Source of the DNA: Halopelagius inordinatus
Lineage (GTDB): Archaea; Halobacteriota; Halobacteria; Halobacteriales; Haloferacaceae
Direction: 5' to 3'
Length of the DNA stretch: 64,000 nucleotides
Assembly (NCBI RefSeq): GCF_900113245.1
Contig: NZ_FOOQ01000001.1
Span: 620,001-684,000 of the forward strand
Position numbers and translations under genes: made by a program. Below the pieces are notes generated by a model. It did no database searches. It saw only the letters and a program-made list of their open reading frames with translations, and was not told where the DNA came from. This document shows, in pieces, positions 6,120 to 22,241 of the stretch. Positions within the stretch are counted from its first letter, which is position 1; each line of letters begins with the position of its first letter.

Positions 6120-7867
6120 CAGTGGAGGAACGACCGGAGGTCAGAGAGGGCCCACGCGTTCACCACGTCCGCGGGTTCGCACCACCCGCGTCGGGCGGTG
6201 TGGACGCCGTACCGCACGTAACCGAGCGTGTCCGGTCGGTGCGCGTCGGTATCGACGGCGATGGCCGCACCCGCCTCGACGGCCGTCTTCGCGGGGCCGC
6301 CGTGTAAGTCGAGTCGCGCGGGGTCGCTGTTGATTTCGAGTGCGACGTCGTGTTCGGCCGCCGCCTCCGCGACCCGTCGAACGTCGATATCGAGTCCGGC
6401 CCGGTCGTTGATGAGACGGCCCGTCGGGTGACCGAGGATATCGACGGCGGGGTGTTCGACCGCCCGCACGAGTCGGTCCGTGGCCGCGTCGGGGTCTTGG
6501 TCGAGTGCGGCGTGCGGCGAGGCCACCACCACGTCCAACTCGGCCAACACGTCGTCGCTCGTCGGGATGTCGCCCTCGGCGCCGATGTTCGCCTCGACGC
6601 CGTGGAGGAGTTCGAGTTCGGCGTCGGCCGCAACCTCGCGGAGGGCGTCCATCTGTTCTCTCAGTTCGTCGTCGTCGAGTCCGACGCCGCCGACCATCCC
6701 CGGGCCGGTGGCGTGGTCGGTCACCGCGTAGTAGTCGTATCCGCGCGCCTCCGCGGCGGCGACCATCTCCTCGGGGGAGTTCCGCCCGTCGGACCAGTTC
6801 GTGTGCGTGTGCAGGTCGCCGCGGACGTCTCCGCTTTCGAGGAGTTCCGGCAGGTCGCCCTCCGAGGCGGCCTCCACCTCGCCGGTGTCCTCGCGTAACT
6901 CCGGCGGCACGAGGGGCAGGTCGAGAGCCGCGTACATCGACTCTTCCGTCTCACCGGCGACGCGTTCGCCGACTCGTTGCCCCGCGTCGGGGTCGTCCAC
7001 GTCGCTCACGTCGAAGACGCCGTACTCGTTCATCTTCAGGTCGCGTCGGATGGCGACGTTCCGGAGCTTCAGGTTGTGGTTCTTGCTCCCGGTGAAGTAC
7101 TGCAGGGCCGCGCCGTACTCCGAGGGGACGACGACGCGGAGGTCGATTCGGACGCCGTTCGCGCGGACGCTCGCTTTCTCCGGCCCGGATTCGATGACGG
7201 TCGAGACGCCGTCCCACCCGGTGAACGCCTCCACGACGGCGTCGGCGTCATCGCTCGCGACCAACACGTCCACGTCGCCGATGGTGTCGCGCCACCGGCG
7301 GATGGAGCCCGCGACTTCCACCTGCGACGCCGCCGCCTCGCCGCGGAGCAGTTCGAGCACGTCGTCCGCGAGGGGGCGGGCGTCCCCGAGACGCGCGCGC
7401 TCTTGGGCCCGCCGGGCGAACGCGACGTTCGAGAGGATATTCTCCTCCGTCTTCGGTCCGAACCCTTTGACCTCGCGAATCTCGCCCGCTTCGGCGGCGG
7501 CCTCCAGTTCGTCGAGCGTGGTGATTCCGAGCGTCTCGTACAGCGTTCCGACCGTCTTCGGTCCGACGCCCTCGACGCCCGTCAGCGCCTGTATATCGAC
7601 CGGCATCTCGTCGCGCAGTTCGACCAACTCCGCTATCTCTCCGGTCTCGAAGTACTCGACGACCTTCGAGGAGATGGCGTCGCCGACGCCGTCTATCTCC
7701 TCTACGGTCTCTTTACCCTCCGCGGCGAGTCCCTCTATCGGTCGGCCGTGCGCGCGGATGTTGTCCGCGGCGCGGCGGTAGACGTTCGGTTTGTACTCGA
7801 CGCCGTCGGCTTCGAGTCGGTCGGCGAACTCCTCGAACAGGGCGGCCACCTCCGCGTTCCGACTCAC
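6119..7867 (-). CDS. polX: DNA polymerase X family protein with PHP domain
   Basis: Protein of 582 aa with the bacterial/archaeal PolX layout. An N-terminal 8-kDa-like HhH domain (HhH motifs near 96-108 and 133-144) is followed by a nucleotidyltransferase palm with GSIRR and GDVDVLV catalytic Asp residues (about 187-204), a fingers/thumb region with FTGSKNHNLKLR (about 258-270), and a C-terminal PHP phosphoesterase beginning DLHTHTNWSDG (H353, H355). It is expected to fill gaps in base-excision repair, with PHP-borne 3' exonuclease or phosphatase activity. The start is GTG, overlapping the upstream DUF5788 stop by 4 nt. The downstream Mut7-C gene is coupled by TGATG. Intact and full length. 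Confidence 0.95.
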   Translation of the reverse strand: MSRNAEVAALFEEFADRLEADGVEYKPNVYRRAADNIRAHGRPIEGLAAEGKETVEEIDGVGDAISSKVVEYFETGEIAELVELRDEMPVDIQALTGVEGVGPKTVGTLYETLGITTLDELEAAAEAGEIREVKGFGPKTEENILSNVAFARRAQERARLGDARPLADDVLELLRGEAAASQVEVAGSIRRWRDTIGDVDVLVASDDADAVVEAFTGWDGVSTVIESGPEKASVRANGVRIDLRVVVPSEYGAALQYFTGSKNHNLKLRNVAIRRDLKMNEYGVFDVSDVDDPDAGQRVGERVAGETEESMYAALDLPLVPPELREDTGEVEAASEGDLPELLESGDVRGDLHTHTNWSDGRNSPEEMVAAAEARGYDYYAVTDHATGPGMVGGVGLDDDELREQMDALREVAADAELELLHGVEANIGAEGDIPTSDDVLAELDVVVASPHAALDQDPDAATDRLVRAVEHPAVDILGHPTGRLINDRAGLDIDVRRVAEAAAEHDVALEINSDPARLDLHGGPAKTAVEAGAAIAVDTDAHRPDTLGYVRYGVHTARRGWCEPADVVNAWALSDLRSFLH

Positions 7868-10039: not shown

Positions 10040-11125
10040 TCAGAGCAGGTCTTCGAGTTCGTCGTTCTGCCACGCCTCCGCCGGGTCGCCCCGCTGTTTT
10101 TCGGTTTCGGCCGCCTTCTGGGCTTCCTTCGCGCGCTCCATGAACTGCTGTAGCCTGTCGGAGCGTTCGACGCCGCCGAGGAGGACGAGCGACGCGATTC
10201 GATCGCTCTGAAGCGGGAAGTCGCCCCCGCGGACTTGGCGGCTCCCCGTCTCGTCTTCGAGCCATCGCCGGGCGCGTTCGACGCCTTTGCGCGGTATCTG
10301 ATCGGGGACGCCCGCGACGACGAGGAGGGCGGCGTCGGCTCTGCTCGCCTCAGGCAGACTCGTCCCCGTCATGAGCGCGCGCCGCGTCGTGCTCATCACC
10401 GTGTTTATGTTCCCCTCGGCGGTGTCGGCGGACTCGCCGGACGCGTATCCGAGCGCGGCGACGCCGCCGGAACGGAGCGTGTTGATGACCTCCGAGGAGT
10501 CGACGACGCTCTCGCCGACGCCCTCTACGGCCTCGCCCGAGGCGAAGAGCAGGCCGACTCGCTGGGCTATCTCTCGGTTGATGGCGTCGAACCCCTCGCC
10601 GAGGCTCTCGCCGGAGGAGCGGAACGCGTCGTTGTCGACCAACAGAAGCGAGTCCGCCTCGCGCGCGACGGTCTTCAGCGACCGACCGGCGTTCACCTGA
10701 TACATCGCGCCCGCGTTCCGCCCGGGGAGGACGCCGAGAGCGTAGACGGGCACGTCGTAGATGCGCTTGAGTTCCTTCACGAGCACCGGCGCGCCGCCGC
10801 TTCCGGTCCCGCCGCCGAGTCCGGCGACCACGAAGATGGCCTCCGCTTCGGCCGTGATTCGCCCTTCGAGGGACGCGAGCACTTCCTGGCTGTCGGACTG
10901 CATGACCTCCGCGCCGAGTTCGTTGTCGCCGCCGACGCCGTGGCCCTTCACTCGGTCCTGTCCGATCAACACCGTCTCGAACGGGAGTTCTTGGAGGTCG
11001 GCTTCCGCGGTGTTGACTGCGAGAGTTCCGAGGACTGCCTCGAAACCCATTCGGGAGTCGAAATCGGCCAGTTCCCGGGTGAGCTTTCCACCCGCCTGCC
11101 CGACACCAATTAGGACGGTCTTCAT
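10040..11125 (-). CDS. cetZ1: CetZ tubulin-like GTPase (CetZ1-type)
   Basis: Protein of 361 aa of the FtsZ/tubulin superfamily. It has an N-terminal GVGQAGGKL nucleotide-contacting loop, LAVNTAEADL, the signature VVAGLGGGTGSGGAP (GGGTGSG at 104-110), YALGVLPGRNAG and NDAFRS. In Haloferax, CetZ1 controls rod development and motility and acts as a cytoskeletal filament in the cytoplasm. The C-terminal tail (EKQRGDPAEAWQNDELEDLL) is short and acidic, as in many tubulin-like proteins. The gene is divergent from a type IV pilus/secretion-like cluster, and I recall the same neighbourhood for Haloferax cetZ1. The ATG at 11125 gives MKTVLIGVGQAGG; a longer open frame upstream is a shadow. CetZ membership is certain, subtype 1 is probable. 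Confidence 0.93.
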   Translation of the reverse strand: MKTVLIGVGQAGGKLTRELADFDSRMGFEAVLGTLAVNTAEADLQELPFETVLIGQDRVKGHGVGGDNELGAEVMQSDSQEVLASLEGRITAEAEAIFVVAGLGGGTGSGGAPVLVKELKRIYDVPVYALGVLPGRNAGAMYQVNAGRSLKTVAREADSLLLVDNDAFRSSGESLGEGFDAINREIAQRVGLLFASGEAVEGVGESVVDSSEVINTLRSGGVAALGYASGESADTAEGNINTVMSTTRRALMTGTSLPEASRADAALLVVAGVPDQIPRKGVERARRWLEDETGSRQVRGGDFPLQSDRIASLVLLGGVERSDRLQQFMERAKEAQKAAETEKQRGDPAEAWQNDELEDLL

Positions 11126-11170
11126 ACCCACCGCTTGCTGTTGGAGACCTTCAACCTTCCCCACCTGTCG

Positions 11171-11177
11171 TTTAAGT
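11171..11177 (+). promoter_or_regulatory. TATA-like element in the cetZ-pilus divergent promoter
   Basis: tttaagt, centred 27 nt before the ATG at 11201 (leaderless). Read on the other strand the overlapping sequence is gacttaaac, about 48 nt before the cetZ ATG, so one element may serve both directions. Confidence 0.5.
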
Positions 11178-11200
11178 CTGATGACGAGGCCAGTCGGCGC

Positions 11201-11704
11201 ATGGCTCGAAACTCGACGCACGACGTGGACGCGCTCGCCTCCCGTCTCGACGCCGTCGAACGCGCGGTGACGACGGACGACGGAACAGTTCCCCCGGCAG
11301 ACGTCCACCGGTCCGAACGTGACGACGCCGCCGCGGCCGACGCGGCCGACTCGCGCGACAGAGAGGTGGCCGACGGTGTCGATGCCGAACTCGAAGCGTT
11401 GCGAGAGCGCGTCGCGACGCTCGAAGCGGAACTCGACGCCGTGCGCGGCCTCCTCGGCGGCGTGCAAGCCGTCGATGAGTCGGTCGAACGACGGGCGGAC
11501 GCCGCCCTCGCGAAGGTCGAACGCCTCGAATCGTCGATGGCCGAGGAGTCCGGCCTCGTCGTCGAACGCCTCCCGGTAGACGAGATTTCCGACGACGCGA
11601 GACCGAGAGAGAACGACGCGAAGACGGCGGCGACGGACCGAACGTCTGCGACCGAAAGAGACGAAGCGAACTCCCTCGCGGCGCGCCTGCGCGAGGCGCT
11701 CTGA
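11201..11704 (+). CDS. DUF7310-like coiled-coil protein
   Basis: Protein of 167 aa, strongly acidic. A coiled coil at about 55-110 (ELEALRERVATLEAELDAVRGLL, with heptads continuing to KVERLESSM) lies between disordered acidic segments. There is no signal or membrane region, so it is cytoplasmic. It is the first gene of the pilus/secretion-like cluster, divergent from cetZ, with one base between its stop and the next start. It resembles a family recalled as DUF7310. A scaffold or adaptor linking the ATPase machinery to another cytoplasmic component is an inference from position and coiled coil alone. The ATG at 11201 is supported by a TATA-like box 27 nt upstream. Confidence 0.85.
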   Translation: MARNSTHDVDALASRLDAVERAVTTDDGTVPPADVHRSERDDAAAADAADSRDREVADGVDAELEALRERVATLEAELDAVRGLLGGVQAVDESVERRADAALAKVERLESSMAEESGLVVERLPVDEISDDARPRENDAKTAATDRTSATERDEANSLAARLREAL

Positions 11705-11705
11705 G

Positions 11706-12167
11706 GTGATTCGCCTCCTCTTGGCCGCCGCGGTCACCGCCGCGCTTCTCGCAACCGCGCTCCCGGCCGTCGAAGACGCCCGCACGGAGCGCGTGGCGGC
11801 GAGTCTCGACGCCGACGCCGAGCGGGTGGTCCGAGCGACCGAATCGCTCGCGTACGGCGAAGACCCGACGCAGTCGCTCTCGACGGCCCCGCGGCGAACC
11901 GTCCGTCTCTCTCTCCCCGCGCGTTCGTGGACGGCCGCGGACCTCTCGTACGTCGCCGTCGGCGGCAGACCCGAAGAGACGGAGTCGCGTCCCGTCCTCA
12001 CGTACGCGTTCTCCGGCGGACGGGAGACGGAGCGACGACTGTCGCTTCCGGTCCCCCTCCGAACGCCCGACGGACCGGTCGTCCTCCGAGACTCCGGGAC
12101 GCACACCCTCTCGATTTCGCTTCTCTCCGAATCCGAAGCGCCTGTCGTCGTCGTTCGGTCGGTCTGA
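11706..12167 (+). CDS. Membrane-anchored DUF7311-like protein
   Basis: Protein of 153 aa with a GTG start one base after the preceding stop. An N-terminal hydrophobic helix (residues 1-22, IRLLLAAAVTAALLATALPAV) is followed by ARTERVAASLDADAERVVRATESLAYGED and a beta-rich exterior domain (RRTVRLSLPARSW, VLTYAFSGGRE). This N-terminal helix followed by an amphipathic helix resembles pilin-like and minor pseudopilin anchors, but there is no clear class III signal motif. It is probably outside the cytoplasmic membrane as an accessory to the ATPase and membrane protein encoded next. The family number is recalled. Confidence 0.83.
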   Translation: MIRLLLAAAVTAALLATALPAVEDARTERVAASLDADAERVVRATESLAYGEDPTQSLSTAPRRTVRLSLPARSWTAADLSYVAVGGRPEETESRPVLTYAFSGGRETERRLSLPVPLRTPDGPVVLRDSGTHTLSISLLSESEAPVVVVRSV

Positions 12168-12188
12168 GAGACGAACCCGCTCCGGAGG

Positions 12189-12195
12189 TTTATAT
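12189..12195 (+). promoter_or_regulatory. TATA-like element for the secretion ATPase
   Basis: tttatat is centred 27 nt before the ATG at 12219. It indicates a separate leaderless transcript for the ATPase and GspF-like pair, although the upstream gene ends only 51 nt earlier. Confidence 0.55.
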
Positions 12196-12218
12196 GCGGA
12201 GAGGCGGCCAGCCACCCC

Positions 12219-14216
12219 ATGCCAGTTGACTTCGACGCCGGTCTGGACCTCGTCGACGTCGCCAGACGGAGTCTGGCGGGCCGCCGAGGGTCCCTCGTTG
12301 ACGCCGCTACCGCGGGGTTCGGAGCGATGCTCTCGGACGGCTCCCCCGATGAGGGCTGTCGGTGCGAACCGCGTTTCGAGACGCCCGCCGGACGTGCCGG
12401 ACGCCGCACCGCGGAACTCGTCGTCGACGCCGACGACTGCCCCGGCGAGGGTGACCTCGCCTCGAATCCCGATTGCCGCGCCACCGTCGTCGGGGCGTTG
12501 GCCGACCGAGACGCCGACGTCGTTCGAACGGTCGCCGACGGCGTCAGTCGGACGTACGAGGACGCCGCCGCCGGACTGCTCCTCTCTGCCGGCCGGTTCG
12601 TCGAACGCGTCCGGTTTCACGACGAGACGCTCGCGGCCCGCGCCGAACGCGACCCGTTGGGCGCGGCGCGGGAGGCGGCCGGACGCGCCGGCGCAGTCGG
12701 TCGCATCGTCGCCGAGACCGGTCTGGAGGAGGGTGCGGCGAGAGCGGACGGCTACGGCGACGCGCTTCGACCCGCGGTCGGACCGTCCGTCGCCCGGTCG
12801 CGGGTCAGAGTTCGCCCGCCCGCCGACGCGTCGCTTCTCGACCGGCGCGAACTCCCGTCGGGCGCGACCGTTCGCCTGTACGATACGCCCGAGGGGACGC
12901 GCTACCACCTCACACCCGTCGCGCACTCGCTCGATTCGTCCGCGGCGGCGACGCTCGCGGCGGCGTACGACTGCCTCGCCCGCGGCCGCGTCGAGGGCGG
13001 GTCCCGCGCGCCGGGACGCGCCGTCCGCCACGTCGCGGACGATTCGACGCCCGTCGAGACGCTGACCGACGTGCTCCGGCAGTACACCCGCGGAAACGGC
13101 GTTCTCGATGACCTGTTTTCGGACCCGCGAGTCACGGACGTGGCGGCGTCGGCACCGGTCGAAGAGAACGCCGTCCGGGTCACCGTAGACGGCGAGCGAC
13201 TGCGGACGAACGTGCGACTGACGGCGGACGGCGCCGCCGCCCTCGCCTCGCGGTTTCGACGCGCCAGCGGGCGGGCGTTCTCGCGTGCGACGCCCGCACT
13301 CGACGCCGCGGTGACGCGACCGGACGGAACGAAAGTCCGCGTCGCCGGTGTCACTGCGCCCGCGAGCGACGGCATCGGGTTCTCGTTTCGCGCTCACGGC
13401 GACGACGCGTGGACGCTCCCCGGACTCGTCGCCGCGGGGACGCTCTCGGCGGACGCGGCGGCGCTTCTCTCCGTCGCGGCCGAACGGGGGTCTGCGGCCC
13501 TCGTGGCAGGGACCCGCGGGGCGGGGAAGACGACGCTTCTCGGCTCTCTCCTGTGGGAACTCCCCGCCGCGACGCGTCTCGTCACCGTCGAAGACACTCC
13601 GGAACTCCCCGTCGAAGCCCTCCGCGAGAACGGCCGTGACGTGCAACCGCTCACCGTCGAACTCGACGGCGGCGCGGGGTCGTTCTCGCCCGACGACGCT
13701 CTCAGGACCGCGCTCCGACTCGGCGACGGCGCTCTCGTCGTCGGCGAGGTCAGAGGCGAGGAGGCCGGGACGCTGTACGAGGCGATGCGCGTCGGCGCGC
13801 ACGGCAACGCCGTCCTCGGGACGATACACGGCGACTCCGCGGCGGCCGTCCGCGAGCGAGTCGTCTCGGACCTGGGCGTCCCCGAGTCGGCGTTCGGCGC
13901 GACGGACCTCGTGGTGACGTGCGCCCGCGACGGCCCGGACAGACGCGTCGAGCGAATCGAGGAGGTCCGTACCGGCGGCGAAGGCGTGCGATTCGAGACG
14001 CTGTACGCGCCGGGCGCAGACGGACTCGACGCGACGGGCCGCGTCTCCCGCGGCGACAGCGCACTCGTGGACTCTCTGGCGAAGTCCGAAGAGGCGTACG
14101 CGGACGTTCTCGACGCCCTCGACGGACGCGCGGCGCGCATCGAACGACTCGCCGAGACGGACCGCACCCGTCCCGAGGACGTCCGGACCGCGTACCGCGG
14201 ACGGGAGGTGAACTGA
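12219..14216 (+). CDS. Type II/IV secretion system ATPase (GspE/PilB/VirB11-like)
   Basis: Protein of 665 aa. The motor domain carries Walker A GTRGAGKT (431-438), an Asp box VTVEDTPELP, Walker B ALVVGEVRGEE and a His box GTIHGDSAAA (from 534). It should hydrolyse ATP in the cytoplasm to assemble a pilus-like filament or drive secretion. The N-terminal region has four cysteines (C47, C49, C74, C86) in a CxC...C...C pattern that could bind a metal. The middle region (PVETLTDVLRQYTRGNGVLDDLFSDPRVTDV) is the usual N2-type domain. The GspF-like membrane partner follows one base later. A TATA-like box 27 nt upstream supports the ATG. Which filament it powers is unknown; the exported proteins downstream are the obvious candidates. 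Confidence 0.93.
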   Translation: MPVDFDAGLDLVDVARRSLAGRRGSLVDAATAGFGAMLSDGSPDEGCRCEPRFETPAGRAGRRTAELVVDADDCPGEGDLASNPDCRATVVGALADRDADVVRTVADGVSRTYEDAAAGLLLSAGRFVERVRFHDETLAARAERDPLGAAREAAGRAGAVGRIVAETGLEEGAARADGYGDALRPAVGPSVARSRVRVRPPADASLLDRRELPSGATVRLYDTPEGTRYHLTPVAHSLDSSAAATLAAAYDCLARGRVEGGSRAPGRAVRHVADDSTPVETLTDVLRQYTRGNGVLDDLFSDPRVTDVAASAPVEENAVRVTVDGERLRTNVRLTADGAAALASRFRRASGRAFSRATPALDAAVTRPDGTKVRVAGVTAPASDGIGFSFRAHGDDAWTLPGLVAAGTLSADAAALLSVAAERGSAALVAGTRGAGKTTLLGSLLWELPAATRLVTVEDTPELPVEALRENGRDVQPLTVELDGGAGSFSPDDALRTALRLGDGALVVGEVRGEEAGTLYEAMRVGAHGNAVLGTIHGDSAAAVRERVVSDLGVPESAFGATDLVVTCARDGPDRRVERIEEVRTGGEGVRFETLYAPGADGLDATGRVSRGDSALVDSLAKSEEAYADVLDALDGRAARIERLAETDRTRPEDVRTAYRGREVN

Positions 14217-14217
14217 C

Positions 14218-15945
14218 GTGGTCGCCGACGCCGAGTTGGCGGCGGTCACAGACCGTCTGGCGCGGGCGTACCCGTGGCCCGTGACGGCCGGAGACGACCT
14301 GCGGCGTGCGGTGGCGTTTCTCGACTTCGAGTCCGACGCCGAGACGGTCGTTCGGGCGGGGTACGTCGCTTCGGTTCCGGTCGCTCTCTGCGCCTTCGTG
14401 GGAGCGACGCTTCTCACACCGGGGTTTCCCGCCGTCACGCGACTTTTGCTCGCCGTGACGGGTGGGCTCGCGGCGACGCACGCCGTCCACCGACTTCCCG
14501 TCGGACTGGCGGCGCTTCGGCGGACGCGAGCACTCGGCGAGACGGCCGACCTCGTGGGGCGCGCCGCCCTCCGGATGCGACTCGAACCCGCCCCGGAACG
14601 GGCCGCCGCGTTCGCCACGCGCACGGGCGACGGCCCCCTCGCTTCGAGTCTCGAATCGCACGTCCGGCGAGAGCGAGGGACGCCCGACTCGGCGTTGGAG
14701 TCGTTCGCCGCGGAGTGGTCGCCGTGGTTCCCCGCACTCGACCGCGCCGTCTCGCTTCTCTTGACCAGCGCCGACGCTCCCGAGGGCGAGCGGAGTCGGT
14801 CGTTAGACCGGGCTCTCGAAGCGATTCTCGACGGAACGCACGACGAGATGGCCGACTTCGCCGCGACGGTCCGCGGTCCGACGACGGCGCTGTACGCCTT
14901 CGGCGTTCTCCTCCCTCTCACACTCGTCGGCGTCCTCCCGGCCGCGAGGGCCGCGGGAATCGTCTTTCCCGCGAGCGCGTTCGTCTTCGTCTACGACGTG
15001 GTCCTCCCTCTCACCGTCGTCGCGGCCAGCGCGTGGTTGCTCGTCCGCCGTCCCGTCGCCCTTCCGCCGCCGCGCGTCGACGGCGACCATCCGGACGTGG
15101 GCGCCGGCCCGTGGCGCGGACTCCTCGCCGGAGCCGCGGGCGTCGCCGTCGGATGGGTGGGGGGCGGAGCGGTCGCCTCGTGGGCCTCACCCGTCGCCGC
15201 CGCGGGGTTCGGCCTCGGCGCGGCGCTCGCGGCCCACTACTACCCGATGGCTCGGGTTCGCCGTCGCGTCCGCGACGTGGAGTCCCGACTGGACGACGCG
15301 CTCTACCTCGTCGGCCGCCGCGTCGACGACGGGACGGCCGTCGAGACGGCTGTCGAAGCCGCCGCGGACGACATCGACGGCGCGACGGGTGACCTGCTCT
15401 CCGAGGCCGCCGGGGTTCGGAGCCGACTCCGCGTCGGCGTCCGCGAAGCGTTCTTGGGCGAGTACGGGGCGCTCGCGGACGTCCCGAGTCCGCGAACCCG
15501 GGGTGCGGCCGCGCTCCTCGCCGTCGCCGCGAGCGAGGGCCGCCCGGCGGGCGGGGCGGTAGTCGCCACCGCGGACCACCTCCGCGACCTGCGGAGCGTC
15601 GAACGGGAGGCGCGGCGGCAACTCGCCTCCGTCACCGGAACGCTCGGGAACACCGCGGCGTTCTTCGCACCACTCGTCGCCGGCGCGACGGTGGCGATGG
15701 CGGCCCGCATGGCCGAGACGGACCTCTCGCTTTCGGGCGAGGCGACGACGGCGCTCTCGACGGCGACGCTCGGCCTCTCGGTGGGCGCGTACGCGCTCTG
15801 TCTTGCCGTCCTCCTGACGGCGCTTTCGACCGGACTCGACCGGGGACTCGACCGAACGCTCGTCGGCTACCGCGTCGGCCTCGCACTCCTCGCGGCCACG
15901 GGGTCGTACCTCGCGTCGTTCTCCGGTGCGTCGGTACTGTTCTGA
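14218..15945 (+). CDS. Type II secretion/TadC-like multi-pass membrane protein (GspF family)
   Basis: Protein of 575 aa, GTG start one base after the ATPase stop. It contains two repeats of the GspF/TadC pattern: a cytoplasmic helical domain followed by paired membrane helices. Examples are YALYAFGVLLPLTLVGVLP, VVLPLTVVAASAWLL, LAGAAGVAVGWVGGGAVAS, and at the C-terminus FFAPLVAGATVAMAARM and LGLSVGAYALCLAVLLTALST. The second cytoplasmic domain, DDALYLVGRRVDDGTAVETAVEAAA, is typical of haloarchaeal PilC/ArlJ homologues. It is the membrane platform on which the ATPase acts. Confidence 0.9.
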   Translation: MVADAELAAVTDRLARAYPWPVTAGDDLRRAVAFLDFESDAETVVRAGYVASVPVALCAFVGATLLTPGFPAVTRLLLAVTGGLAATHAVHRLPVGLAALRRTRALGETADLVGRAALRMRLEPAPERAAAFATRTGDGPLASSLESHVRRERGTPDSALESFAAEWSPWFPALDRAVSLLLTSADAPEGERSRSLDRALEAILDGTHDEMADFAATVRGPTTALYAFGVLLPLTLVGVLPAARAAGIVFPASAFVFVYDVVLPLTVVAASAWLLVRRPVALPPPRVDGDHPDVGAGPWRGLLAGAAGVAVGWVGGGAVASWASPVAAAGFGLGAALAAHYYPMARVRRRVRDVESRLDDALYLVGRRVDDGTAVETAVEAAADDIDGATGDLLSEAAGVRSRLRVGVREAFLGEYGALADVPSPRTRGAAALLAVAASEGRPAGGAVVATADHLRDLRSVEREARRQLASVTGTLGNTAAFFAPLVAGATVAMAARMAETDLSLSGEATTALSTATLGLSVGAYALCLAVLLTALSTGLDRGLDRTLVGYRVGLALLAATGSYLASFSGASVLF

Positions 15946-15957
15946 CTCCTGCGAGGG

Positions 15958-15965
15958 TTTATATA
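15958..15965 (+). promoter_or_regulatory. TATA-like element for the exported-protein genes
   Basis: tttatata is centred 27 nt before the ATG at 15988. It gives the four exported-protein genes their own leaderless promoter, starting 12 nt after the GspF-like gene stops. Confidence 0.6.
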
Positions 15966-15987
15966 CTGGAGGGCGACCAGCGCCTCC

Positions 15988-16467
15988 ATGCTCGACGTTC
16001 CCCTCGACTCGTTGTACGCGTGGTTCGGACTGTCGCTCGCGAGTGTCGCACTCGTCGGCGCGGTTGCGGGTCTCCCGACGACGCCGCCGCCGAACGCCGC
16101 GGACGCCGCGACGACCGTAGACCGGGTGGCGGCGGCCGAATACGACGCGACGGCCGAACATCCGCTCGACGCCTCGGCCGTCAGAATCGAGAGTCGCCGC
16201 ATCTCGCTTCGGAACGACGCCGGAACCGCGCACGCGACGTTCGGGTTCGGTCCCGTGACGCCGGTTCCGGCGAGCGACTCGCCGCTTCGGGCGGTGCTCC
16301 ACGGCACCCCGCCGGAGGACGCGTTCGACTCTCCGAGGGCGTTCCAGCAGGCCGTGGTGGACGCTCGCGCCGAGTCCGACGACGCGGCGTGGCGAGAGGT
16401 GGACCGCACGCTCGTCGTTCGCCGCACCTCCTGGGAGGGAGTCGATGTCGTACTCGTGGACGCCTGA
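15988..16467 (+). CDS. Exported single-TM protein, DUF7283-like
   Basis: Protein of 159 aa. An N-terminal hydrophobic helix (residues 9-30, LYAWFGLSLASVALVGAVAGLP) is followed by a Pro/Ala segment, TTVDRVAAAEYDATAEHPL and a beta-rich extracytoplasmic domain. The layout, a TM anchor then an amphipathic helix then a globular head, is pseudopilin-like. Unlike the next gene product there is no clear Arg-Gly-Gln type class III processing site. It is the first of four overlapping genes (it overlaps the next by 23 nt) and has its own promoter. The family number is recalled; a role as a pilus or secretion subunit is inferred from context. Confidence 0.85.
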   Translation: MLDVPLDSLYAWFGLSLASVALVGAVAGLPTTPPPNAADAATTVDRVAAAEYDATAEHPLDASAVRIESRRISLRNDAGTAHATFGFGPVTPVPASDSPLRAVLHGTPPEDAFDSPRAFQQAVVDARAESDDAAWREVDRTLVVRRTSWEGVDVVLVDA

Positions 16468-16855
16468 GGGCGAACCGCGGGGGCAGACGTCTCCGCTCGC
16501 CGCTCTCGCGGCCCTCTTTGCGGTCTGTACCGGCGTGAGCATCTACGTCGTCGCACTCGGCGGGGCCGTCCCCGTCGGCGACGACAGGGCGTACGCGGAC
16601 TCGACGCTTCACCGCGTCTCCGGCGAACTCTCCGACGGCGGCGTCGTCGACCCGTCGACGCTCGACTCTGCGCGGTCTGCGGCACCCGCGGGGCGGCAGC
16701 TGAACGTCACGCTCACGGCCGGTGACCGGCGGTGGGCGACCGGTCCGCGCCCGCCGACCGGAACGCGGACCGACGCGGCGAGTCGCACGACGAGCGTCCG
16801 TCTCGGCCCCGGTTCGGTCGCTCCCGGCCGCCTCCGCGTCGAGGTGTGGCGATGA
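16445..16855 (+). CDS. Prepilin-like protein, DUF7285-like
   Basis: Protein of 136 aa whose N-terminus has a good archaeal class III (prepilin) signal: PEGEPRGQTSPLAALAALF, with R12-G13-Q14 preceding a hydrophobic helix to about residue 40. PibD-type peptidase should cut after Gly13, leaving Gln-Thr at the mature end, as in haloarchaeal type IV pilins. The remainder is a small polar domain. The start overlaps the preceding gene by 23 nt and the stop overlaps the next ATG (ATGA). This is the strongest sequence evidence that the cluster builds a type IV pilus-like structure. Confidence 0.85.
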   Translation: MSYSWTPEGEPRGQTSPLAALAALFAVCTGVSIYVVALGGAVPVGDDRAYADSTLHRVSGELSDGGVVDPSTLDSARSAAPAGRQLNVTLTAGDRRWATGPRPPTGTRTDAASRTTSVRLGPGSVAPGRLRVEVWR

Positions 16856-17721
16856 ACGCCGCCGTCGACGCCGCCGTCTGTCTCCTCCTCGTCGGAGCGG
16901 CCGTCTTCGGCGTCAGCACGGTTTCCGACCCCGTCGAAACCGGCGATTCGGCCCGGACCGACGCCGTGGCCGAATCGCTCGCGACGAGTACCACGACGGT
17001 GACCTACGCGCTCCGTCCGGGGACGGGTCCTGTCCGGGGCACGCCCGCGGCGTTCCCCCGCGAGAACGGCTCTGACTTCCGCCGGACGACGCACGGGACG
17101 TTCGCGGGCCTCCTCGCGCGGGCCGCAGTCGACACCGCGGGGTTCGACGACGACTCTCTGACCGGGTCGCGCGACGACTTCCGGCGGGCCGTCAGAGAGG
17201 CGACGGCCGGCTCTTTCGAGACTTCGAACCTCAGAATCGACGCGGAGTGGCGGCCGTACCCCGGGTCGCCCGTCGGCGGCCGCGTCGGCGTGGGGACGGA
17301 ACCGCCGGAGACGGCGAGGGTCCACGCCGCGACGCTCTCGGTGCCGAGCGGCGCCGACCCCGTGCCGGTGGCGGCGGACGACTTCGAGACGCTCGGTCTC
17401 GCCGTCTCCGAACGCGTCGTCGAAACGCTCGTCCCCCGCGAAACTGCGATTATCGCGCTTCGCGGCGACTACCCCTCCTCCGCGCTAATGTGGCACCGTT
17501 ACGGCCGTCTCGGCGAGGAACTCGGCGTCTCCGTCGAACGCGACCTCCGCGCGGAGAACGCGACGGCGTCGAACCGTCGCCTCGCGGACGCCCTCGCGCC
17601 GAGAGTGGAGTCCGACCTGCGCGACCGGTTCGACTCGCCGTCGGAGGCGGCGTCTGCCGTCGACGTCCATCGGGTTCGAATCGTCGTCCGCGCGTGGGAG
17701 TCCGAAGGGAGGGTCGCCTGA
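16852..17721 (+). CDS. Exported single-TM protein, DUF7284-like
   Basis: Protein of 289 aa beginning MNAAVDAAVCLLLVGAAVFGVS, an N-terminal hydrophobic helix, with a large extracytoplasmic domain that carries several N-glycosylation-type Asn-X-Ser/Thr sequons (for example NGS near 67). The ATG at 16852 overlaps the upstream stop (ATGA), and the downstream start overlaps this stop (TGATG), so all three are translationally coupled. It resembles a family recalled as DUF7284. No enzyme motif is seen; structural role inferred from position. Confidence 0.85.
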   Translation: MNAAVDAAVCLLLVGAAVFGVSTVSDPVETGDSARTDAVAESLATSTTTVTYALRPGTGPVRGTPAAFPRENGSDFRRTTHGTFAGLLARAAVDTAGFDDDSLTGSRDDFRRAVREATAGSFETSNLRIDAEWRPYPGSPVGGRVGVGTEPPETARVHAATLSVPSGADPVPVAADDFETLGLAVSERVVETLVPRETAIIALRGDYPSSALMWHRYGRLGEELGVSVERDLRAENATASNRRLADALAPRVESDLRDRFDSPSEAASAVDVHRVRIVVRAWESEGRVA

Positions 17722-20700
17722 TGCGCCTCGCTGACGACGACCGGGCGCGCGTCCCGTTCGCCCTCGTAGGCGTCCTCCTCCTCGTCACCAGTTCGACGTA
17801 CGCGGCGTCGATAGCGACGAGCGGTCCCGGTGCCGCGGACCGGTCCGTCGACGAAGCGATGGACCGCGTCGACGCGGAGACGACCACCGCGCTCCGGACG
17901 GCGACGCGCGACGCCGCACTCGCCGCCGCACGGAACCCGGTGACCGACAACTCCTCGACCGCCGTCGGGAAGGCGCTGGGCGAAAACCGGACGTTCCGCC
18001 GGTATCTACGCCTCCGAATCTCGCTGGCCGCGGCGGAGTCGCTTCGCGCGGTCGAACACGCGCGCGGCGACGTGACCGCGAACGCGACGCTTCCGACGCC
18101 GACAGGCGTGGCTTGTCGAGCCGCCGGACGCTGTCCGGCGACCCCGACGAACGAGTCGTCTCTCGGAGAGGCGATACGACGCGTCTCTGTCGCCGAGGCG
18201 GCGAACGGAACCGCGCTCTCTGTCACCGTCAGAGACGTCTCGCTCACCGCCCGGCGCGACGGGCGAGTCGTCGCCGAGGAGTCGGTCACGCGCACGGTGA
18301 CGGTGTCCGTCCCCGTTCTCGGCCTTCACGACCGAACCGCCGACTACCAGCGCCGACTCGACGCGAATCCCCTCGAAGCGCCGGGACTCTCCCGACGGGC
18401 GACGGCGGGACTCCTCGGCGTCGCGCAGGCCCGAGGGGCCGCGCAGTACGCCGGAGCGCCGATTCAGAACGTCCTCGCGAACCGCCACGTCGAACTCTCG
18501 ACGAACGCCGGTCTCCTGACCGCCCAACGGGCCGCCTTCGGGCGGACGGACCCCGACGCCCGCCGCGGCGTCCGCCGCGCGACCGCTCGAACCGGACTCA
18601 TGGACGTGCTGAAACCCGTCGCCGGCGGCGACGCGGCGACGGTCGTCGCCGACGAAGCGGCCGACGCGGCGGTCCCGCCCGCGTCCGAGAACTCCACGAT
18701 ACCGACCGCCGCGCCGCGGTCCGCAGACGAGACGCTTCGGGTGGACGTGGGGTCGACGGCCGACGAAGCGTTCGTCGCGTTCCTCCGCGGCGAGGGCGAA
18801 CGCCCCGGGTTCGACGAGGTTCGTCGCCACGGCTACCGGGCGCGGGTAGACGTTCGGAACGACGTGACGACCGAACGGGACGGCTCCCGACCCGCGCCGG
18901 ACGCCCCCGGACGGGTCTGGTCGCTGGCCTCGCAGGACACCTCCCGCGAGACGCGCGTGGAGTCGGTGGACGGAGGGACGGTATCGCCGCGAACCGGCCC
19001 GGGCGAACGAGCCTTCGACACTGCCGTTCGTCGCGTCGTCGTCGAACACCGCGTCGAGCGGACGTGGAGACATCCGAACCGGTCGTCGCGCGGCACCGAG
19101 GCGACGTGGACCGACAGTTACCGGGTCGAGATGACCGTCGTCGGCTCGCTCACCTCGGTTCCCGGCCCGGACCGACGGGTCGCTCCGCTCTTCGAACGCG
19201 GCGGCGCGGTGGGCGGGCCGAACCTGCGAGCCATCCCCGATACCGCCGCCGACGCTCTCGCGAACCGCGGCGGCGCGGACGCCGTCGCCCGCCGTGCGGT
19301 CGGCGACGACGCATCGGCGGCGACGACTGTCGACGGCCGACGGCCGGAACGACTTCGCGCGTGGGCGTACGACGACGTCGCCTCCCTCCGCGAACGGGTT
19401 CGGAACGTCGCCGTCGAACCGCCCGCCCGCGCCGTCGCGACCGGACGCGTCAACCCGGCGGCCCGACTGGCGACCGCCGTCAGAGAGCGTCGCGCGTCGC
19501 TCGTCGACGCCCCCGATACCTACGACGGGGCGGCCGACCGCGTCCGCGTCGCCGCGCGTGCGGCGTATCTGAACCGGCTCCTCGCGGCCCTCGACGACCG
19601 AGCGAACCGGACCGCGACCAGAAACGACGGCATCGAGGCGGCCCTCGACGCTCGCGGCGTCGACGCCGACCGGGCGAACCGCATCGCGGCCAACCGCACG
19701 ATACGGACGCCGGACCGCAGAAAACAGGGGAGTGCGGGGTCACCAGCCGGACCGACGACGTTCGTCCCCGACGGCGACCCGGCGTACCTCACGCTCGACC
19801 CCGTCGCGGGTGACCGCGTGGACGGCGTCGGAGACGAGACGCGCTACTACCCCCTCGCGGCGCGGAACAGCAACCTGTTTTCGCTCCCGTACGGCGACGC
19901 CTCGGACGTCGTCGCCGACGCCCTGTTGGGCTCCGGCGAGTCGGTGTCGCTCCGAACCGCGGGACGCGCAGTCGTCGCCGCGAACCGGACGCTCGCAGTC
20001 GAGAGCGACGAAACGCTCGAACGTCGCCGCGACGCGCTCCAACGGAAGACCGAAGACTCGTTCCGCGCGGTCCAGTCTCGGGCCGTCGAGACGCTGGGCG
20101 CGGAGACCGACCTCCCGGAAGACGACCGGCGACTGGCGGTGACCGCCGCCTCAGAGAGGTGGGACGGAACGGGGCGCCGCGCCGTAGCCGCCGCAAACGG
20201 GTCGTTCGCGGCGGCCGTCGCCGCCGAAGCCGAACCGGCCGACCCGACGGACCGAGACCGAATCGAGACCGCGCTTCGCGTCGATATAGCCGCCGCGGCG
20301 ACGGATGCGGACGTTCGCGTACCGGAGCGCGCGACCAACCGAACCGTCTCGCGGACGCGCCGACTCGGGACCGAACTCCTGAAAGACGCCGCGGAACGCG
20401 GGACCGAACGCGCCGTCGAGCGCACCGCACAGAAGTACGCGAACACGTCGCTCGGCGGCACCCCCGCGGGACTCCCCCTCTCGCCGACGATGAGTCCGTG
20501 GGTGGCGACGACCAACCTCTGGGTCGTCGAGACGCGCGGCGAGTACGCGCGCTTTACCGTCTCCGCGGACCGCGGCGGCGCGACGCCGGTCACCTACGTC
20601 CGGGACGGACGCGCCGTTTCGCTCGACGTGGACGGCGACGGAGTGAGAGAGACGCTCGGGCGCAGCGAGCGAATCGGGTTCGACGTCCGAACCGTCGTCC

Positions 20701-20834
20701 CGGTGGTCGTCCCCGCGGGGCGACTCGGCGTCGGCGACAGAGACGGCAACGCGATAGAGGAGTCGCCCGCGTGGACGGGCGAGAACCCCGGACCGGGATG
20801 TGAGACGCCGACCGGCCGGTGTCCGAGAGAGTAA
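17721..20834 (+). CDS. Large exported protein, DUF7286-like
   Basis: Protein of 1037 aa, the last and largest member of the cluster. It has an N-terminal cytoplasmic stub rich in charged residues, then a hydrophobic helix (residues 11-30, VPFALVGVLLLVTSSTYAAS). The very long exterior domain is Arg-, Asp- and Ala-rich, with many Asn-X-Ser/Thr sequons (NSST, NRTF, NATL, NGTA, NRT repeats). The absence of other membrane helices makes it an anchored surface protein. A Ca-like acidic loop (DVDGDGVRET) occurs near the C-terminus. It overlaps the upstream gene by one base (TGATG). It could be the tip, adhesin or cargo of the apparatus; this is inference from size and position. Confidence 0.85.
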   Translation: MRLADDDRARVPFALVGVLLLVTSSTYAASIATSGPGAADRSVDEAMDRVDAETTTALRTATRDAALAAARNPVTDNSSTAVGKALGENRTFRRYLRLRISLAAAESLRAVEHARGDVTANATLPTPTGVACRAAGRCPATPTNESSLGEAIRRVSVAEAANGTALSVTVRDVSLTARRDGRVVAEESVTRTVTVSVPVLGLHDRTADYQRRLDANPLEAPGLSRRATAGLLGVAQARGAAQYAGAPIQNVLANRHVELSTNAGLLTAQRAAFGRTDPDARRGVRRATARTGLMDVLKPVAGGDAATVVADEAADAAVPPASENSTIPTAAPRSADETLRVDVGSTADEAFVAFLRGEGERPGFDEVRRHGYRARVDVRNDVTTERDGSRPAPDAPGRVWSLASQDTSRETRVESVDGGTVSPRTGPGERAFDTAVRRVVVEHRVERTWRHPNRSSRGTEATWTDSYRVEMTVVGSLTSVPGPDRRVAPLFERGGAVGGPNLRAIPDTAADALANRGGADAVARRAVGDDASAATTVDGRRPERLRAWAYDDVASLRERVRNVAVEPPARAVATGRVNPAARLATAVRERRASLVDAPDTYDGAADRVRVAARAAYLNRLLAALDDRANRTATRNDGIEAALDARGVDADRANRIAANRTIRTPDRRKQGSAGSPAGPTTFVPDGDPAYLTLDPVAGDRVDGVGDETRYYPLAARNSNLFSLPYGDASDVVADALLGSGESVSLRTAGRAVVAANRTLAVESDETLERRRDALQRKTEDSFRAVQSRAVETLGAETDLPEDDRRLAVTAASERWDGTGRRAVAAANGSFAAAVAAEAEPADPTDRDRIETALRVDIAAAATDADVRVPERATNRTVSRTRRLGTELLKDAAERGTERAVERTAQKYANTSLGGTPAGLPLSPTMSPWVATTNLWVVETRGEYARFTVSADRGGATPVTYVRDGRAVSLDVDGDGVRETLGRSERIGFDVRTVVPVVVPAGRLGVGDRDGNAIEESPAWTGENPGPGCETPTGRCPRE

Positions 20835-20903: not shown

Positions 20904-21335
20904 ATGCTCTACGACGCGGTGGACGACCCGGCGTCGCGTTCGACCGACGAGTTGCGGGAAGCCTACGAGACGCAGATACGGCGCGCGATCGAACGCGTCG
21001 GCGTCGAGACGGCGGCCGAACGCACCGGCGTCGACCGCGCGGCCGTCGAAACGGTCGCGGGCGGCCCCGCGCCCGATCTCCGCCTCGAAGACGCGGCCGA
21101 ACTCGTCGCACTCGACGGCGACGCGCCGGACGCAGAGACCATCGTCCTCGAAATCCGCGACCACCTGCTTTTGGGGATGACCACCGGCGTCCTCGACGTG
21201 GACACCATCGCCTCGAACGTGGACCTCGACCTCTCCGGACAGGAGATTCAACAGACCATAGAGGGCCGTTCGGGGATGACGCTCCGCCAACTGGCGGCCA
21301 TCCAGCGCTTCATCGAAGAGCGCAACGACCGATAG
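20904..21335 (+). CDS. DUF5791-like protein
   Basis: Protein of 143 aa, all-helical appearance: ELREAYETQIRRAIERVGVETAAERTGVD, then LRLEDAAELVALDGDAPDAETIVLEIRDHLLLGMTTGVLDVD and RQLAAIQRFIEERN. The first part resembles a helix-turn-helix (TAAERTGVDRAAVETV), so it may bind DNA or another protein. It resembles a haloarchaeal family recalled as DUF5791. It abuts the next gene with no spacer, so the two form an operon. A T-rich box (cggttttggg) 27 nt before the ATG supports the start. Confidence 0.82.
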   Translation: MLYDAVDDPASRSTDELREAYETQIRRAIERVGVETAAERTGVDRAAVETVAGGPAPDLRLEDAAELVALDGDAPDAETIVLEIRDHLLLGMTTGVLDVDTIASNVDLDLSGQEIQQTIEGRSGMTLRQLAAIQRFIEERNDR

Positions 21336-22241
21336 ATGGTGCGAGTCGTCGTCCTCGGGTGCGGCTACGTCGGCCTCGAACTCGGTCGGCAGTTGGTCGA
21401 CGAGGGGCACGAAGTCACGGGCGTCAGACGCTCCGAGTCGGGACTGGAGACCGTCGAAGACGCCGGACTCGACGCCCGCCGCGCCGACGTGACCGACCCG
21501 GACAGCCTTCGGGATTTGCCGGACGCAGACTGGGTCGTCTTCACGGCCAGTTCCGGCGGGCGAGGGGCCGACGCCGCCCGGGCCGTCTTCGTCGAGGGGG
21601 TAGAGAACGCGATTGCGGAGTACGGCTCTCGGGAGTCGCCGCCGGACCGCCTCGTCTACACGTCTTCGACCGGCGTCTACGGCGACCACGACGGCGACTG
21701 GGTCGACGAGGAGACGCCGTTGGACCCGACGACGGAGAAGACGGCCGTGTTGGCGGAGGCCGAACGCGTCGCCCGCGAGACGGCGGGGGAGACCGGAATC
21801 GACGGCACCGTCGCCCGCTTTGCGGGTCTGTACGGCCCCGACCGCTACCGCCTCGACCGGTATCTCTCCGGGCCGGTCACCGAGGGCTATCTCAACATGG
21901 TCCACCGCGACGACGCCGCCGGGGCCGTCGCGTTCCTCCTCGCCGAGGACGCCGCCCGCGGGGAGGTAGTTCTCGTCGCGGACGACGAACCGGCCGACAA
22001 ATGGACGTTCGCCGACTGGTTGGCCGACGAGTGCGGCGTCTCTCACCCGTCAAAGCGAACGAAAGAGGAACGCCTCTCTGCGGGTGACCTCTCGGAGGCG
22101 GCGACGCGGCGTATTCGGACGAGCAAGCGGTGCTCGAACGAGAAACTCCGAGAACTGGGCTACGAACTCCGGTATCCGACCTACCGAACGGGCTACCGCG
22201 ACGCCATCGACCGCTTCCGCGCGGACGCCGACGGGACGTAG
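21336..22241 (+). CDS. NAD-dependent epimerase/dehydratase-like SDR protein
   Basis: Protein of 301 aa with an extended short-chain dehydrogenase fold. The Rossmann motif VVVLGCGYVGLELG is close to GxGxxG. Further signatures are RADVTDP (adenine contact), VFTASSGG, YTSSTGVYGDHDGDW in the active-site region, VARFAGLYGP and NMVHRDDAAGAV. The usual YxxxK pair is not obvious: the segment after YTSSTGVYG has TEKTAVLAEAE rather than YgxsK. It resembles the YeeZ-like atypical SDRs, whose substrates are unknown. It starts on the base following the DUF5791 stop. Confidence 0.87.
   Translation: MVRVVVLGCGYVGLELGRQLVDEGHEVTGVRRSESGLETVEDAGLDARRADVTDPDSLRDLPDADWVVFTASSGGRGADAARAVFVEGVENAIAEYGSRESPPDRLVYTSSTGVYGDHDGDWVDEETPLDPTTEKTAVLAEAERVARETAGETGIDGTVARFAGLYGPDRYRLDRYLSGPVTEGYLNMVHRDDAAGAVAFLLAEDAARGEVVLVADDEPADKWTFADWLADECGVSHPSKRTKEERLSAGDLSEAATRRIRTSKRCSNEKLRELGYELRYPTYRTGYRDAIDRFRADADGT

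Follow-up and report, generated by a model that had tools for sequence, protein, structure and literature searches.

A PilB2–PilC2 gene module and its exported DUF7286 protein beside cetZ2 in haloarchaea: gene content, co-occurrence and repeated uncoupling

Type IV pilus loci with a tubulin-like neighbour have been described in haloarchaea. Makarova (2016) reported an FtsZ-family gene in the subclade 4F pilus loci of Halobacteria, together with a coiled-coil cytoplasmic protein (arCOG07564) unique to this subclade, and proposed stand-alone PilA-type pilins as its possible major pilin (PMC4858521). Brown and Duggin (2023) identified the tubulin-family gene as cetZ2, lying beside a pilB2/C2 regulon whose neighbours include an epimerase, in Haloferacales and Halobacteriales; covering 41 species, they proposed a relatively recent, mobile-element-like acquisition and described an unrelated pil locus of Thermococcales that also carries a CetZ (PMC9856176). 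Thus, the cetZ2–pilB2/C2 association, published in 2016 and 2023, is already known. In Halobacterium salinarum, Losensky and colleagues found the pil-2 genes to be co-transcribed, with three predicted prepilins and an 8.5-fold increase of pilB2 in attached cells (PMC4292770), and deletion of cetZ2 in Haloferax volcanii has so far only altered the length and roundness of cells in early biofilm (PMC10606840). We found no papers under the DUF names or under six H. volcanii locus tags assumed for the cluster.

Here, we analyse this locus in a 64,000-nucleotide stretch of Halopelagius inordinatus DNA (the window) and in related genomes. What is new is a 240-genome survey that ties PilB2 to the large exported protein DUF7286 but not to CetZ2, which separates two questions joined in the literature, the role of the PilB2 machine and the role of CetZ2, and names DUF7286 as the obligate partner of the machine. 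The reading we favour, at a probability of roughly 55%, is that the cluster is the haloarchaeal PilB2–PilC2 (pil-2; subclade 4F) machine, whose own minor-pilin-like proteins would make up a short type IV (pseudo)pilus and for which CetZ2 would be a facultative spatial organiser.

Gene content and likely transcription layout of the cetZ2 locus

Re-calling the window placed all ten genes of the locus where an earlier note on this DNA had put them, and Pfam assigned CetZ, DUF7310, DUF7311, T2SSE, DUF7283, DUF7285, DUF7284, DUF7286 and then DUF5791, bearing out each of the DUF7310, 7311 and 7283-7286 families that the note had named. On the minus strand, cetZ2 (10040..11125, 361 aa) encodes a tubulin-like GTPase with a tubulin GTPase domain, a CetZ C-terminal domain (E=3e-65) and a conserved C-terminal peptide (NDELEDLL in the window copy). 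Judged by sequence, it is a member of the CetZ2 subfamily, clustering with CetZ2 rather than with CetZ1 or others. CetZ scores are bimodal, at 539-667 bits for the CetZ2 class compared to at most 408 for other CetZs, and the window value is 649. Against the PDB, the CetZ profile scored 606 with 4b45 and 411 with 4b46, which we take to be H. volcanii CetZ2 and CetZ1, respectively.

The divergent, plus-strand module comprises eight genes whose order is constant in most loci. It starts with DUF7310 (11201..11704, 167 aa, 72 bits), a cytoplasmic protein of a coiled-coil family that may correspond to arCOG07564, and DUF7311 (11706..12167, 153 aa, GTG start, 149 bits), which has a single N-terminal transmembrane (TM) helix. 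The PilB2 secretion ATPase (12219..14216, 665 aa) and the PilC2/TadC-like multi-spanning membrane protein (14218..15945, 575 aa) follow, and then the exported proteins DUF7283, DUF7285, DUF7284 and DUF7286. The small cytoplasmic protein DUF5791 (20904..21335, plus strand) lies downstream, and a sugar epimerase (21336-22241), a DHH protein and a phosphodiesterase flank the locus; the cetZ subfamily, the kind of regulon and the flank functions are those of the described cetZ2–pilB2/C2 regulon (PMC9856176).

In the window PilB2, a secretion ATPase of the VirB11 family, the catalytic motifs are intact: Walker A (GTRGAGKTT), GEVRGEE and GTIHGD are conserved, and both the nucleotide motifs and the N-domain cysteines C74 and C86 are invariant in 18 orthologues. 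Its best scores are against TadA-type models (TadA family, 6e-36), and its profile matched the archaeal secretion ATPase 2oap, CpaF (1e-29) and FlaI in the PDB. The earlier label of a GspE-type ATPase needs correction, since the protein is nearer to TadA/CpaF and the archaeal VirB11 type than to bacterial GspE. The PilC/TadC membrane partner is recognised weakly, through T2SSF matches in 11 of 18 orthologues (best 3.6e-5); the window copy alone had no Pfam match and a PilC profile search of PDB sequences found nothing. In-frame stops inside many PilB2 matches had raised a suspicion of recoding, which we rejected as the four that were checked are natural gene ends.

The locus shares with subclade 4F a VirB11-type ATPase with a cysteine-bearing N-domain, a TadC partner, an FtsZ-family neighbour and, putatively, the coiled-coil protein (PMC4858521), but it has no PilA-family pilin. 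Whereas the H. salinarum pil-2 unit, with pilB2, pilC2 and three predicted prepilins, carries an in-frame stop in pilC2 of R1 and an insertion in pilB2 of NRC-1 (PMC4292770), the otherwise similar window copy is intact. The resemblance to the bacterial Tad/CpaF pilus lies in the ATPase and does not extend to the Flp pilin or to TadE/F/G, for which Pfam gave no match within the cluster.

Three promoters proposed in the earlier note are supported by their conservation. TATA-like TTTAAG (11171..11176), TTTATAT (12189..12195) and TTTATATAC (15958..15966), all on the plus strand, each begin exactly 30 bases 5' of an ATG, those of DUF7310, the ATPase and DUF7283. We surveyed 122-139 related genes for a hexamer with at least five A/T in six at -36 to -24 (controls 3-6%) and found it before DUF7310 in 68% of 123 loci (control 5%), before PilB in 40% of 127 (3%) and before DUF7283 in 88% of 137 (6%), the only enriched positions inside the module; frequencies before DUF7311, PilC, DUF7285, DUF7284 and DUF7286 were only 2-5%. 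The element is also enriched before cetZ (70%) and DUF5791 (44%). Because the enrichment marks these starts and not the downstream genes, the transcription layout is likely to be cetZ / 7310-7311 / pilB-pilC / 7283-7285-7284-7286, and within the last of these units reading frames overlap or touch. The 75 bases between the cetZ and DUF7310 starts (11126-11200) hold one common A/T-rich element, which may be a two-way promoter.

Prepilin-like N-termini and predicted structures of the exported proteins

A prepilin peptidase requires a small residue before the hydrophobic stretch of its substrate, and an arginine at +1 is unusual for a prepilin motif. Prepilin-like R[GA] sites occur in 136 of 142 DUF7286 ORFs, 99 of 139 DUF7285 ORFs and 59 of 139 DUF7284 ORFs. 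In DUF7285 (16445..16855, plus strand, 136 aa, 130 bits) an R[GA]Q-type site lies ahead of the TM helix, and the window copy has the canonical N-terminus PRGQTSPLAAL. DUF7286 (17721..20834, plus strand, 1037 aa, 1169 bits), a large surface protein, begins with DDRARVPFALVGV in the window and has a near-invariant R-[GA]-R-[VI]-P-F-A across its relatives. DUF7284 (16852..17721, plus strand, 289 aa, 301 bits) has an N-terminal TM helix; its motif, R[AG]xST..D in the 59 ORFs, is absent from the window copy and many relatives. Neither DUF7283 (15988..16467, plus strand, 159 aa, 193 bits), with one N-terminal TM helix, nor DUF7311 has a prepilin motif. The earlier count of one prepilin motif among the four exported proteins is consequently too low, since prepilin-like N-termini are found in at least two (DUF7285 and DUF7286) and, in many relatives, in DUF7284 as well. 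The genome has one match to the archaeal prepilin peptidase (PF06847), which would serve their putative processing, the signal being canonical in DUF7285 and non-canonical at +1 in DUF7286.

The same genome encodes four Pilin_N proteins, all outside the locus, within which Pfam found no Pilin_N or PilA-type major pilin. This bears on a second possibility, that the anatomy is as we propose and the function is not adhesive, the structure being a secretion-type pseudopilus (type II secretion-like, or Tad-like and acting on contact between cells) for the export or presentation of proteins. The lack of a dedicated major pilin in the locus, and an exported set of minor-pilin-like proteins of which one is very large, are in keeping with it; however, stand-alone PilA-type pilins such as those proposed for subclade 4F (PMC4858521) could provide the major pilin, and nothing in the cluster was recognisable as an effector or substrate gene. 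We regard this function as possible, if somewhat less than probable.

Predicted structures were obtained with confidence for DUF7284 (pLDDT 89.6, pTM 0.84; alignment of 43 sequences) and with fair confidence for DUF7286 (pLDDT 83.0, pTM 0.71; 55 sequences). When searched against the PDB with Foldseek, one library with one program, neither matched at E <0.001 (best E 0.47 and 0.09, respectively) and no type IV pilin fold was recognised, an apparent difference from subclade 4F pili; a DUF7286 profile search of PDB sequences found nothing. A kinship between DUF7284 and DUF7286 was considered and rejected, since hhalign shows no relation. The lack of any observed filament of this system, the arginine at +1 in DUF7286, the missing site in the window DUF7284 and the absence of a pilin fold in the Foldseek search count against the reading we favour. 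A more radical interpretation would be an envelope structure unlike known archaeal pili, in which new-fold exported proteins (DUF7284 and DUF7286) surround a type IV motor and are positioned by CetZ2 filaments. If true, it would be a cytoskeleton-guided surface machine, and we think it rather improbable.

Relatives of DUF7285-DUF7284-DUF7286 also occur in four loci (L202, L203, L205 and L208) of non-haloarchaeal genomes of the same phylum, with no PilB2 or CetZ in 19 kb. In two of them (L202 and L203, methanogen-side genomes), all three proteins have a similar motif, and in L202 the triad adjoins other prepilin-like ORFs. At L204 and L210, two or three consecutive stand-alone ORFs match DUF7286 only in its C-terminal part.

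Co-occurrence, uncoupling and in-place loss

DUF7286 is present in 187 of 242 haloarchaeal genomes. In the 240 haloarchaeal genomes searched for CetZ2, PilB2 and DUF7286, it accompanies PilB2 in 178 of 178 cases; 7 genomes have DUF7286 only, none PilB2 only and 55 neither. Five of the seven were inspected and comprise four with relics or fragments (G012, G056, G067, G124) and one with an intact gene (G045), where a genome search found no PilB2 match anywhere. For CetZ2 and PilB2 the pairing is looser: 163 genomes have both, 37 CetZ2 only, 15 PilB2 only and 25 neither, an odds ratio of 7.3 when kinship is ignored, and complete modules are found in genomes with no CetZ2 (for example, at L058, L067, L069 and L074). 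The parts of the machine travel together, with CetZ2 as an optional partner.

Where both genes are present, cetZ2 and pilB2 lie within 8 kb in 111 of 163 genomes; among the remaining 52 are genomes in which separate contigs carry the two genes, and a few of these cases may reflect a broken assembly. As this adjacency is kept across many genera and several families, the link is not limited to close relatives, the outcome that the earlier note had named as a refutation of its proposal.

On a tree of 88 PilB2 orthologues, the linked state is clustered, with 13 changes compared to 24 for shuffled labels; well-supported branches make at least 10 of the 13 unavoidable. Draft assemblies may account for some rows being wrongly scored as unlinked. 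One clade (L177, L178, L181) has the full eight-gene module with neither cetZ nor DUF5791 nearby. These three loci and L212 (G005, G058, G052 and G120, respectively) form a second module subfamily, with PilB2 at about 770-810 bits in the genome search and no adjoining cetZ or DUF5791, and G058 carries one unlinked module as well as one linked to cetZ2.

Three lineages retain relics between cetZ2 and DUF5791. L182, L183 and L184 keep fragments of DUF7286, chiefly from its C-terminal region, and L214 keeps DUF7310 and a DUF7311 cut down to 75 aa. The intact linked cluster is present in other members of the same genus groups, and in L185, L186, L188 and L192-L194 cetZ2 is directly beside DUF5791 and the machine is not beside cetZ2. 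Together, the position of the relics, the intact clusters of the same genus groups and the side-by-side arrangement elsewhere argue for loss of the machine in place with retention of cetZ2 in the relic lineages, rather than for recent insertion everywhere, and say nothing on the date of first assembly. This history of repeated in-place loss and uncoupling differs from that proposed for the cetZ2–pilB2/C2 regulon (PMC9856176).

The module can also be split over two loci (L179 and L180 in G046, L079 in G045, L073 and L082 in G173 and G123), with 7285-7284-7286 beside cetZ2 and PilB-PilC elsewhere, or the reverse. In L195 (G171) and L189 (G024), DUF7310-DUF7311 are still beside cetZ2 and PilB to DUF7286 are elsewhere in the genome.

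Proposed roles of the PilB2 machine and of CetZ2

The constant PilB2–DUF7286 pairing is the strongest functional clue and suggests that the ATPase exists to handle DUF7286 and its small partners. In the simplest interpretation, DUF7286 would be exposed on a short filament or pseudopilus. A PilB2 hexamer docked on PilC2, perhaps regulated by the coiled-coil DUF7310, would push prepilin-like subunits (DUF7285, DUF7286 and, ancestrally, DUF7284) out of the membrane after their trimming by the archaeal prepilin peptidase of the genome. The subunits would assemble into a short filament or pseudopilus, the large DUF7286 being its tip or exposed functional part, and DUF7283 and DUF7311 would be membrane accessories. 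CetZ2 would be no structural part, and would act near the membrane as a cytoskeletal organiser of where or when the machine is built in those lineages that keep the adjacency.

The earlier note had suggested a coupled system of cytoskeletal GTPase and filament machine. CetZ does adjoin a machine of the type IV filament kind, with its ATPase, PilC and prepilin-like proteins, and the divergent arrangement conserved in 111 genomes would fit an obligate coupling that makes CetZ2 a working component. Tight coupling is not supported: each partner is found in genomes lacking the other, adjacency has changed at least ten times, and a whole module subclade is unlinked, one of its members being the second copy of a genome whose other module is linked. 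Since complete modules exist in genomes lacking CetZ2, it is not an essential part, and we consider obligate coupling highly unlikely.

A serious rival holds that CetZ2 and the machine are merely neighbours, the module sitting between cetZ2 and DUF5791 by history while CetZ2 acts independently in cell shape. The adjacency changes, the genomes with one partner only and the relics in place beside an intact cetZ2 all agree with it, as does the CetZ2 tail, which we had considered as a feature specific to linked genomes and rejected because the C-terminal peptide is equally conserved in clusterless genomes. That conservation, together with the 15 PilB2 genomes lacking CetZ2, also counts against the reading we favour and makes a direct interaction between CetZ2 and the machine conjectural. 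Against mere neighbourhood stand the adjacency kept in 111 genomes of several families, the odds ratio of the pair and the CetZ in the unrelated Thermococcales pil locus (PMC9856176), and we hold it to be less likely than not. A facultative organising role for CetZ2 is plausible, as the conserved adjacency is seen in the majority of genomes carrying the two genes. The natural contrasts (machine with no CetZ2, CetZ2 with no machine, and relics) make that role testable in Haloferax volcanii. Two loci (L088 and L096) have a second CetZ-family match beside cetZ2, in the opposite orientation.
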